A stretch of 56,198 nucleotides of DNA from assembly GCA_014859345.1 (NCBI GenBank), contig JACUUL010000008.1:1-56198 (forward strand), in the 5' to 3' direction. The DNA is from Thermoleophilia bacterium (lineage in GTDB: Bacteria; Actinomycetota; Thermoleophilia; BMS3ABIN01). Under the pieces are notes generated by a model that searched no databases, was not told where the DNA came from, and saw nothing but the letters and a program-made list of their open reading frames with translations. Position numbers and translations under genes: made by a program. Shown piece after piece: positions 16,795 to 43,174 of this stretch (its first letter is position 1; the number at the start of each line of letters is the position of its first letter).

Positions 16795-18207
16795 ATGAAG
16801 TTATTTGGGATTAGCGCCATGCGGACCCGGACTATCCTGGTTATGGCTCCGCTGTTTCTTATGGTGATCTTGATGCTGGCATCGGACAGCGGCCTCAACG
16901 GCAGCGCGGCCGCTTCCTCGTATTCGCTCCCGCTGCCGCCGCCGCCCGTGCCGGGATTCTTTCCGGCCCCGGAGCCTGGTCCGGGCAGCTACGCCCAGCT
17001 TGTGACCGTCTACGATGTTGACGCCCTCCTTGCCGATAACGGCAACAAGGGCAGGGTGCACATGATTGACGTGCGTTCTTCTTTTGAGTATCTCGCAGAT
17101 GTATGCCCGATGCAGATAGCTCTGGGGCTGCCTCTCTATACCGAGACCAATGTCGGCCATCCTGTGTGGAACTGGCCGGACGGCACCTATGAAGAGGCTT
17201 ACTCCAACCCTTACTGGATTGGATTTCACTGGGCCGGTGTTCCCTATGCTTCGCTGTGGAACATCAGGATGCAGGAGAACCCGAACTTTCACGGCTACAT
17301 GCAGGCTCTCGTGGCAGACGGCAGCATCGATTACGATGACACACTGATATTACTCTGCCAGACCGGTTACCGCGCCGCCTGGGCGGGCAAGGAAGCCGCC
17401 ATGATGGGCTTCACCGACGTCAGGGTGCTGCACGGGGGCATGCTGGCATGGTCGGATGACTGGTTCGACCAGGACTTCGTCTTCCGGCCCTCACAGGATC
17501 CCGAGAACGATCCTTCTCCAGGGGACTGTTCGCCTGATCTGCAGGCCCAGGGGTATGATAACTGCGACCCGGACAACGTCCCGGGTTCCGACGCCAGGCC
17601 CAAAACTACCGTCCTGACGGATCCCTGGAAGTACAGCCTTGACAGGCTTACCGCGGCCGGCTTCACCCCCTACTGGAATGGCGCCGAGCCCCATGTAGGC
17701 GTCAAGCCGCAATGGCTTCCGGGCGACTTCAACCTGTCGTTAAGCAAGACAGACGTCTACTGGGCCAGTTACGCCGATTATCTGGACCGGATGCTCTCCG
17801 TGGAACTGATGCTAAAAAACAACGCTCCCGATGAGCCCGGGCCGCTCAATTACCCGGCGGCCTGCGGCGGCGCTCCGCCTCCGGAAGGCACTTGTGAGCA
17901 GGTGAACCAGGCTGCCCACGGGACCGCGTACAACGCTATGTTCGTAGCCGCGGCAGCCGGCAATGGCGTGACCGCTGCCACCCTGCCGGCCATGGTCGGC
18001 GACCTGGCGCCTAATGCCTCGGGCTCAGCCGTCATCAAGTTCAACGTGCCGACGGGCGTGTCTTTCTTCACGCTTAATCCCTACGCCGTTGCCACTGACG
18101 TGCCCGATCCGGGCATCTATAATGACGGTTTCCACGATGTCGTCTATGACCAGGATATCTCATGGTACGGAACCTACGCGTATCCCGGTCCCCCACCGAC
18201 GTTCTAG
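16795..18207 (+). CDS. Secreted rhodanese-domain protein
   Basis: 470 residues. An N-terminal hydrophobic segment at about 13-30 acts as signal peptide, followed by a Pro-rich linker (PLPPPPVPGFFPAPEPGPG). The rhodanese domain spans about 70-225: VHMIDVRSSFEY, then an active-site loop C188-QTGY-R193, of the usual six-residue C-x4-R size, and VLHGGMLAW. Such enzymes carry a persulfide on the cysteine and pass sulfur to acceptors. The C-terminal 240 residues have no match I know, contain several cysteines (PGDCSPD, YDNCDPD, AACGG, GTCEQ) and look like a beta-rich secreted domain. Divergent arsR controls it by inference; the 44-residue peptide gene follows after 13 bases. Confidence 0.85.
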   Translation: MKLFGISAMRTRTILVMAPLFLMVILMLASDSGLNGSAAASSYSLPLPPPPVPGFFPAPEPGPGSYAQLVTVYDVDALLADNGNKGRVHMIDVRSSFEYLADVCPMQIALGLPLYTETNVGHPVWNWPDGTYEEAYSNPYWIGFHWAGVPYASLWNIRMQENPNFHGYMQALVADGSIDYDDTLILLCQTGYRAAWAGKEAAMMGFTDVRVLHGGMLAWSDDWFDQDFVFRPSQDPENDPSPGDCSPDLQAQGYDNCDPDNVPGSDARPKTTVLTDPWKYSLDRLTAAGFTPYWNGAEPHVGVKPQWLPGDFNLSLSKTDVYWASYADYLDRMLSVELMLKNNAPDEPGPLNYPAACGGAPPPEGTCEQVNQAAHGTAYNAMFVAAAAGNGVTAATLPAMVGDLAPNASGSAVIKFNVPTGVSFFTLNPYAVATDVPDPGIYNDGFHDVVYDQDISWYGTYAYPGPPPTF

Positions 18208-18220
18208 AAAGGATTCAGGC

Positions 18221-18355
18221 GTGAATGAACCCAAAAAGGAAAGAAAGAGCTACCAAAAACCGGAACTGAAGAGGCATCCGAATCTGAAAGAGGTAACCTT
18301 CGAGTGCCCGGACTGGCAGTGTAGTGTGACGGTGCCGGCTGCGCCTTCTGAATAG
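18221..18355 (+). CDS. 44-residue peptide with RiPP-leader-like pattern
   Basis: GTG start at 18221 with AAAGGA seven bases before it; stop TAG at 18353. It begins 13 bases after the rhodanese stop, on the same strand, so it is probably co-transcribed. The N-terminal half has Y11, P14, L16 and T26 at precisely the spacing of the lasso-peptide leader consensus YxxPxLxxxGxxxxxT, with P20 in place of the glycine. After T26 the tail is FECPDWQCSVTVPAAPSE, with cysteines at 29 and 34. No lasso cyclase, RRE protein, protease or radical SAM enzyme is in the window, and a lasso ring acceptor (D/E at core position 7-9) is lacking if cleavage follows F27. Function unknown; a peptide substrate of some other modifying system is my reading. 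Confidence 0.6.
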   Translation: MNEPKKERKSYQKPELKRHPNLKEVTFECPDWQCSVTVPAAPSE

Positions 18356-29368: not shown

Positions 29369-30973
29369 CTACATTTCCGGCGGGGGGTGAGGGACGAGGA
29401 ATGAACTGCCGCAGGCATCCTCATAACCGGCAAACAGGGTGGTTTTAAAGCTGCTGATGCCGGAGGCAAGCTTGTATACCAGAACTTCTTCCCTGCTGCT
29501 GCCGGCCGGTATGCTGCCAACAATCAATGGAGTTTCTGTCCACAATGTCACCCCGGTGCTGGCCTGGACCGCAATAACCTCGAATTCAATCGCGTCACTG
29601 GCTGACCTGTTCAACAGCTGGAAGCTCACGGAGAGTTCGCGAGCGCTGAAATCTCCATAAGAAGCCCAGAAGCTGTTCAGCAGCGAAAGGCTCAGCTCCG
29701 GTTTCTCGGTGCTGAATTCCCAGTCGACATTGGTCGTATTGCCTGATTTATCAGAAACGGTCAAGGTCACGCTGTGCGGCCCGTCGCTTACCGGGCCAGG
29801 CGGTTGATAGGAAATGCCTGCCTCACTTATCACCGCTCCGCCGGTTACATCCTCTCCATCCAGCTCCAGGGTTATGCCGCCGGGGTCGATACCCGCGCGG
29901 TTGTCGGAAAAAACGGCCGAAATAGTGGGCCGTGAGCACCCGGCATGTGAGCCGTCGGCAGGGGAAGTCTCCGTGACCTCGGGCGGAACCGTATCCGCTA
30001 TGTACGCCATCCATATGTCATAACTGATGGGGCTGGTCGCCTCCCAGACCACAGTCTCCCGGTCAATCGCGGGCAGAACCTGGGTGGAGGGCCCTGCCGC
30101 CACCGCGCCTGTCATGCCGCTGGTCAGATCCTTCATCATGATGTCCCACTGGCCGGCTCCATGGTCCCATTCCTCCCAGACGACGAGATCGCCGCTTATC
30201 CTGGGCGAGTTCTGAAAGTTGGCGTCGTCAGTGATTGCTTCTTCCGTGCCGCTGTCCAGGTCTTTCATCCAGATATTGGAAACTCCATCGTTTTCGCGCT
30301 GCCAGACCACACGGTCGCGGTCGATATCAGCCACCTTGTCATTGCCCGGATTGTCGGTCACCTGCTCTTCCACACCTGTGGATACGTCATGCATGTATAA
30401 ATCCCAGCGGCCGTTCCGGTCATCCTGCCAGACAATTTTCGTGCCGCTTATGCGCGGCTGCCACTGGTTGGCGGGGTTCGTTGATATGGGGATGATCTCT
30501 CGGCTGACCAGATCGATAGCGTAGATGTCGTTGCTGCCGCTGCTGTCGTCCACGTAGGTCACCAGGCTCCCGCTTACCGTCGGCAGGCCCTTATTGCCCG
30601 GTCCCCAAACCAGGGGCTGCTCCTCACCTCCGGACGCGTCTTTCATGTAAAGGTCCCAGTCACCGTTGCGGTTATCCTGCCAGATAATCGTGCTCCCGTT
30701 GGTGATCGGCATGTTTTGATAGGCGGGATGAGTTGAAATGGGTATCTCCGCGTGAACGGAAAGATCGTACATGTAGATATCCCAGTTGCCGTTGCGGAAG
30801 TCTTTCCAGACTATAATGTCTTCCTGAACATCCGGACGGCCCTGGTCGGCCGGGTCATTGGTAATCTGAACGGGGGAAACCAGTGCCAAGGCGAGACCGC
30901 CCAGAAACATCATGACGGTTGTGAAAGTAGCGACCATGAACAGAACAAGGCGTGCCATGCCCAGCATCCCCAA
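29369..30973 (-). CDS. Secreted seven-bladed beta-propeller protein with Ig-like domain
   Basis: 534 residues. Signal peptide or anchor at about 7-32. Then seven repeats of about 42 residues, each with a W/N-D-I/L-Y-M-x-D-like strand: DIYMYDL, DLYMKDA, DIYAIDL, DLYMHDV, NIWMKDL, DIMMKDL and DIWMAYI, preceded by VVWQD.RNG-type strands. This is a TolB/YVTN-like closed propeller. From about 335 follows an Ig-like domain (PPEVTETSPADGS...ISAVFSDNRAGIDPGGITLELDG) and a last beta domain of about 130 residues ending in Pro. It is exported and probably cell-associated through other means, since no sorting motif is seen. Ligand unknown. Confidence 0.82.
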   Translation of the reverse strand: MGMLGMARLVLFMVATFTTVMMFLGGLALALVSPVQITNDPADQGRPDVQEDIIVWKDFRNGNWDIYMYDLSVHAEIPISTHPAYQNMPITNGSTIIWQDNRNGDWDLYMKDASGGEEQPLVWGPGNKGLPTVSGSLVTYVDDSSGSNDIYAIDLVSREIIPISTNPANQWQPRISGTKIVWQDDRNGRWDLYMHDVSTGVEEQVTDNPGNDKVADIDRDRVVWQRENDGVSNIWMKDLDSGTEEAITDDANFQNSPRISGDLVVWEEWDHGAGQWDIMMKDLTSGMTGAVAAGPSTQVLPAIDRETVVWEATSPISYDIWMAYIADTVPPEVTETSPADGSHAGCSRPTISAVFSDNRAGIDPGGITLELDGEDVTGGAVISEAGISYQPPGPVSDGPHSVTLTVSDKSGNTTNVDWEFSTEKPELSLSLLNSFWASYGDFSARELSVSFQLLNRSASDAIEFEVIAVQASTGVTLWTETPLIVGSIPAGSSREEVLVYKLASGISSFKTTLFAGYEDACGSSFLVPHPPPEM

Positions 30974-42586: not shown

Positions 42587-43174
42587 GAAAAAAGCCGTGC
42601 CTTTCTCTAACGCCTTTTTCGGAACAGGGAAAATGCCGGGATTGATGAAACAGGGGGCGCCGGCCGGGGATCCTGGGCACAGGCCAGGGCATCAGCTTGG
42701 TGGGCAGTATCCGTTTCCGATGCTAAAATTAACGGTTCCAGGGCGCGCCAGGTGCATCGCACGGCCCTTTTCCAATGCCATTGCCATAGGGCGGCCCTAT
42801 GCTGCATTGCCAGTCTGGAGCAGTACGGGTCAGGTCCCGGATGTTGCCAAGCTTGAATAGTGCCGGGGCGGCGTATATCATTGACCCTTTTTTATTGACG
42901 ATTTGGAGCCCCTCCTTGAAAATTGGCGTTCATTAACCCTCTGGTGCCGACTATCCTGCAAAATGCTGACAAATTTATTATGTAATGTAGTTTACGAGAA
43001 ATAACGAAAAATCACAATATAGTAAGAATTCCCGGGTTTCGGGGAATGCAATATGCACACAAAGATCGGCGGGATGCCTTGATGCCTTGATAGCTTGATG
43101 CGATGGGAACCGGTGTCCGGTTGTTTGGAATTTAAGCCACGCGGTATAAGACCTTCACATCCTCGAGGAGGGTC
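42587..43174. other. Long gene-free interval between tRNA-Thr and the Cys-rich miniprotein
   Basis: 588 bases with no supported gene. The first half is GC-rich without repeats; the second (about 42880-43020) is AT-rich with a CTGACA box at about 42966 and several AT runs, probably the promoter of 43175. I see no riboswitch, terminator or decayed gene. Confidence 0.3.

Follow-up and report, generated by a model that had tools for sequence, protein, structure and literature searches.

A putative family of dispersed, cyclase-less, lasso-related RiPP precursors beside secreted proteins with a shared Ig-like domain in Thermoleophilia

The 44-residue ORF at 18221-18355 of the window (the whole stretch of 56,198 nucleotides that was analyzed) appears to belong to a set of about eight dispersed genes for precursors of a lasso-related RiPP without a cyclase, and the products may take part in the docking or sorting of secreted proteins. 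This reading, drawn from comparative sequence analysis, is the one that we moderately favor as a whole. An enzyme kit like that of the linear polyphosphorylated peptides (LPPs) appears to act on precursors that are scattered over the genome, next to secreted proteins that have a domain in common. Cluster-limited RiPP mining misses such precursors, which are unlinked to their enzymes. The features of the window are given in Table 1.

TABLE 1 Positions of the precursor genes, the Ig-like-domain genes, and their predicted parts in the window
Feature	Position	Strand	Basis
Precursor peptide gene, 44 aa	18221..18355	+	Translation; homologues
Predicted leader, residues 1-27 (Y11 = -17, P14 = -14, L16 = -12, T26 = -2)	18221..18301	+	Register against PMC10368454; conservation
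Predicted core ECPDWQCSVTVPAAPSE, residues 28-44	18302..18352	+	Putative cleavage one residue past T(-2); conserved FECPxWQCSVxVP
Ser35 (core +8), invariant within W-x-C-S; candidate phosphorylation site	18323..18325	+	Conservation
Ribosome-binding site GAAAGGA	18207..18213	+	Sequence reading
Secreted rhodanese plus Ig-like protein, ATG start 16795	16795..18207	+	ORF reading, domain search
Rhodanese domain match PF00581	17314..17457	+	Domain search
Lineage-specific C-terminal Ig-like domain	17719..18204	+	Profile, AlphaFold; no Pfam family
WASYADYLDR loop of the Ig-like domain; variable positions matched within genomes	17761..17790	+	Column comparison
Second Ig-like-domain exoprotein, repeat N-terminus, without adjacent precursor	29369..30973	-	Sequence reading
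Second precursor, MIYAAPALFKLGNIRDLTRTAPDWQCSIGPPYGNGIGKGPCDAPGAPWNR	42729..42881	-	E = 4.5e-9 with profile A1

Precursor gene and leader

The ORF translates as V(M)NEPKKERKSYQKPELKRHPNLKEVTFECPDWQCSVTVPAAPSE followed by a stop. Its GTG start lies 7 nt downstream of the GAAAGGA motif and at a distance of 13 nt from the stop of the upstream ORF at 18207, which agrees with the good ribosome site and the 13-base gap after a rhodanese gene described in an earlier note on this DNA. The rhodanese itself is borne out by a PF00581 match (E = 1e-9), and the same ORF has a catalytic-type CQTGYR loop and a signal-like N-terminus. The translation also contains the residues that the note had placed at lasso-leader spacing, namely, Y11, P14, L16, and T26, with P20 in place of G, as well as C29 and C34. 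In the lasso leader convention, the Y, P, L, and T stand at -17, -14, -12, and -2 (Duan 2023, PMC10368454), and applying this convention places the core start at E28.

In the window, little weight attaches to the leader motif by itself, which is not beyond chance: the pattern Y..P.L.{9}T occurs twice in the six frames, against 0.42 expected, and the maximum in 60 Markov-1 windows is also 2. Both occurrences belong to true members of the precursor family. It is the existence of homologues that establishes the precursor gene, the motif alone being insufficient, and the peptide is very probably a precursor. No family for the 44-residue peptide was found in Pfam and NCBIfam, and the AlphaFold model of the peptide alone is without secondary structure.

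Distribution and conservation of the precursor family

The source genome, that of a deep-subsurface bacterium, has seven strong precursor copies and one weak, divergent copy (E = 4.5e-9 with profile A1), all scattered. All 19 genomes analyzed from the same Thermoleophilia family gave between 4 and 12 matches each, while the remaining genomes of the class gave matches at E > 0.01 only, and a profile search over 396 genomes of the phylum yielded full-length matches confined to the same family. A search of 84,980 species genomes for the core pattern returned 67 loci; as far as they could be matched, all belong to this lineage, mostly to deep-subsurface MAGs with the labels Gaiellales, Thermoleophilia, or Actinomycetes, and also to BMS3Abin01. 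The source data are all metagenome-assembled genomes. No paper on the precursors of this lineage was found in the literature.

In 28 aligned members, P14, L16, T26, C29, W32, Q33, C34, S35, V36, V38, and P39 do not vary, position 33 being S or T as well in the wider peptide set. The homologue comparison proposed in the earlier note thus shows that the Y, P, L, and T positions and both cysteines are kept in the homologues, among which the spacing of YxxPxL and T(-2) is constant. The conserved core reads F-E-C-P-x-W-Q-C-S-V-x-V-P-P, with E1, C7, S8, and V9 as core residues, P, S, A, Q, or L as residue 3, and the invariant Ser at +8. A second precursor family has the leader in common and a different core, in which W-x-C-S is kept and C29 is lost, and the copy at 42729-42881 combines the leader of the second family with PDWQCS. 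The retention of W-x-C-S in both indicates that it is the shared core element.

Ig-like domain beside the precursors

The genes preceding nearly every precursor copy form one similarity cluster, united by a domain of ~107 residues that is usually C-terminal and has invariant or near-invariant W, D, and Y residues (P-x-L-S-L...Y-W-A-S-Y-A-D-Y...). Pfam has no family for this domain (CARDB matches at E = 0.09). AlphaFold models it as a confident beta sandwich (pLDDT 79), for which Foldseek found no PDB match below E = 1e-3 and remote Ig-like folds only. A profile of the domain detects 11 to 38 copies per family genome, including 28 in the source genome, and a single weak match over 41 other genomes. 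The passengers of the domain include rhodanese, beta-propellers, NosD beta-helix, cytochrome c3/c7, GH26, and GH99, among others.

Among 110 peptide ORFs, a regex-collected set with a few false members, 68 precursors lie directly 3' of an Ig protein. Another 7 immediately precede an Ig protein in which the domain is N-terminal or internal. In the source genome, seven of the eight precursors adjoin an Ig gene, against ~3% per gene expected from ~28 Ig domains among an assumed ~2000 genes. About 14 precursors, situated upstream of hemC and convergent to it, stand without an Ig neighbor (L059, L075, L085, L099, L104, and others). The majority of Ig proteins have no precursor beside them, and Ig proteins are also present in the enzyme loci described below. 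The constant neighbor of the precursors is the Ig-like domain and not rhodanese, which is one passenger of many; the sulfur-related setting envisaged in the earlier note is therefore unsupported. A sulfur carrier or redox peptide that is linked to rhodanese and acts through its two cysteines would accord with the conservation of C29 and C34 and with the rhodanese that precedes the copy at 18221-18355. However, most copies follow non-rhodanese proteins and the second precursor family is without C29, which largely contradicts this reading, and we reject it as extremely improbable.

Two further observations concern Ig-domain proteins. A propeller plus Ig-domain protein (L235 1156-3543, G000:C95) has two identical repeats, each with DCPDWECDIQVP, which resembles the core of the source genome with Asp at the place of Ser35; this is suggestive but a single case. 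By our own estimate, ~0.4 occurrences of its generic pattern would be expected by chance in the scanned sequence, and the segment was not found in other genomes. In addition, a second PqqD type lies beside a radical SAM gene in L142, L143, L144, and L145, with a weak SPASM match in L142, and Ig-domain proteins are present in L142 to L144.

Maturation enzymes encoded elsewhere

A locus encoding a kinase, B1, and usually B2 is present in nearly every family genome and supports the view that the peptide resembles a RiPP precursor matured by enzymes from other loci. PqqD/RRE proteins occur in every family genome, with a strong match in nearly all. In the source genome, a lasso-type RRE (B1) lies between an HprK-like kinase (K) and a B2-type leader peptidase, surrounded by genes for a DUF2079 membrane protein, glycosyltransferases, a methyltransferase, a radical SAM protein, and an Ig-domain protein. 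A B2-type (PF13471) peptidase occupies the leader-peptidase place in the loci read. B2 exceeds the cut-off in 16 of 19 family genomes versus 3 of 41 others, and these three have an Asn synthase on the contig that carries their RRE. B2 was not found in G016, G018, or the very incomplete G008 and lies ~20 kb off in G012. The kinase motif H..G..G.GKS..DD (taken from PMC10368454) is intact in 12 of 12 and 12 of 14 copies, and the Cys, His, and Asp of B2 are present. The kinases score about 65 bits with HprK_rel_A (TIGR04352) against a curated cut-off of 200, which makes them related to that family and not equivalogs. A PF14907 nucleotidyltransferase (N) was confirmed in L141, and related ORFs occur in 6 of 20 loci. 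No exporter was identified, and no precursor was found in a K-B1-B2 locus.

A second HprK-like kinase belongs to a conserved gene arrangement (Ig protein-precursor-lipoprotein-kinase-Ig protein-precursor), and its position inside a precursor locus provides a physical link of the kinase to the precursors. The lipoprotein between the precursor and this kinase (L038 871-1443 and relatives) ends in IEIxVPPAP, like the core tail. The enzyme-substrate link is inferred from the leader register, the second kinase, and co-occurrence in a phylogenetically single clade, and this co-occurrence counts as one event because the whole family is one clade. Processing of the peptide by the K-B1-B2 kit is probable, and the enzymes most likely act on the precursors in trans.

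The leader consensus and the B1 and B2 homologues would also fit an ordinary lasso peptide or antimicrobial RiPP. However, no Asn-synthase cyclase was found near K-B1-B2, and the core has neither Gly1 nor an acid (D/E) at +7 to +9 and is thus not a lasso peptide; it is also constant within a genome and not diversified. The lasso product suggested by the leader comparison in the earlier note is therefore unsupported, the lasso reading is rejected as already contradicted, and a product of this ordinary kind is highly improbable. Two long Asn synthases considered as the cyclase were also rejected; they belong to a flippase/B12-radical-SAM polysaccharide locus (L164).

Alternatively, the peptide may be a small partner protein that stays unmodified and acts with the Ig domain as, for instance, a beta strand or a metal-binding peptide, its lasso-like leader being coincidental or a relic. 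The strand-like VxVPPPP, the similar tail of the lipoprotein beside the second kinase, and a weak Ogr/Delta zinc-finger match in the domain search (E = 0.026) are in line with this. Against it, leader spacing is constant over families with different cores, and K, B1, and B2 are kept with intact catalytic residues and no other precursor beside them; we consider it unlikely.

Genome-wide matching of the core and the Ig loop

In a matching test of 58 peptides sorted into ten synteny groups, the variable core positions agree at 0.88 between peptides of the same genome, 0.59 between those of the same locus (orthologous), and 0.58 between those sharing neither, and 500 permutations shuffled within groups gave a mean of 0.62 and a maximum of 0.69; these and the following figures are descriptive and not exact probabilities, because the genomes of a genus are not independent. 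The variable leader positions show agreements of 0.57, 0.71, and 0.54, respectively. The peptide tail matches by genome, as the core does. Gene conversion or recent duplication, instead of selection by a partner, could produce such core matching in a multi-copy family, and contigs frequently break at the precursor copies. However, codon identity at conserved core residues is 0.619 within and 0.620 between genomes, and leaders follow the locus. The equal codon identities argue for parallel selection and against gene conversion, a reading that the codon test contradicts and that we reject, leaving it a very slight probability. Since the core follows the genome, the leader follows the locus, and synonymous codons follow neither, each core appears to be matched to one shared partner.

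Most columns of the Ig-like domain track orthology, whereas those around W-A-S-Y-A-D-Y-x-A-G track the genome, as illustrated by loop column 17, with an agreement of 0.72 within genomes versus 0.38 between orthologues. The core and the Ig loop are thus each matched per genome, as they should be if they interact directly or have a binding partner in common. With both bearing the evolutionary mark of a shared partner, the question of what LPPs and phosphorylated lasso peptides do becomes a binding test. A secreted signalling peptide (pheromone), in which one receptor reads the shared core and the Ig proteins are merely co-expressed neighbors, would also account for a short conserved product in several copies that are alike within a genome and different between genomes. 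Nonetheless, it does not explain why the precursors adjoin one particular domain, whichever gene comes first, or why the Ig loop is matched as well, and no receptor or regulator is found among the constant neighbors, which makes this explanation rather unlikely.

Proposed function

In the docking and sorting model that we favor, B1 would capture the leader via YxxPxL, a kinase would phosphorylate a core Ser, for which S35 is the best candidate, and B2 would remove the leader by cutting F27|E28. The resulting linear peptide of ~17 residues would be exported and serve as a docking, sorting, or anchoring element common to the Ig-domain exoproteins, perhaps together with surface glycan. Glu as the first core residue is unusual among B2 substrates, and Ser35 is at +8, while the known kinases act on +3 or on the final residue. 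Phosphorylation of the core has slightly better than even chances. The location of most precursors beside secreted proteins with one domain suggests that this peptide class helps surface display. An adaptor role for the Ig-domain exoproteins is a serious possibility that we hold tentatively, and the fuller proposal, in which a leader-processed, phosphorylated peptide acts as a genome-specific docking or anchoring adaptor in RiPP-based surface display, is a little more speculative still. If true, the adaptor reading would describe a new kind of system.

Comparison with known systems

The nearest known kind is the LPPs, published in May 2026 (Popov 2026, PMC13381572) and described as restricted to Bacillota, with a signal-peptidase-I-type leader peptidase, an MsbA-like exporter, and one to three precursors inside the cluster that have variable C-termini and a phosphorylated Ser3. 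The roles of LPPs and of phosphorylated lasso peptides (paeninodins) were stated to be unknown in 2026 (PMC13381572). The system described here has in common with LPPs an HprK-like kinase and a discrete RRE without a macrolactam cyclase, together with a YxxP leader and a location among polysaccharide genes; some of its loci may also encode an NTP transferase like that of LPPs. It differs in its occurrence in Thermoleophilia, its B2-type peptidase, its dispersed precursors with a constant core and no Ser3, and its Ig-domain partners.

Phosphorylated lasso peptides come next (paeninodin, pseudomycoidin, and Bsf; PMC8498205, PMC10368454), as they share K, B1, B2, and sometimes N, as well as YxxPxL at -17 to -12 and T(-2), identical to those of experimentally studied lasso precursors. 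In contrast to them, the present system has no cyclase C and no Gly1 or D/E acceptor, and its enzyme locus is without a precursor. PEP-CTERM and the type IX secretion CTD are C-terminal sorting-domain systems of secreted proteins, in which, as here, one C-terminal domain is found on many unrelated secreted proteins per genome. Unlike these, the system described here pairs an Ig-like domain with a neighboring peptide gene, without a recognized anchor or sorting enzyme.

A nearly identical leader, EYQKPELxEHENLxEVTKG, is also present in short ORFs of family f14 (L250 to L252), which are in tandem in some genomes and have cores of about 9 to 15 residues. The L250 copy adjoins a flippase gene and a radical SAM gene and comes from another actinomycetotal family.
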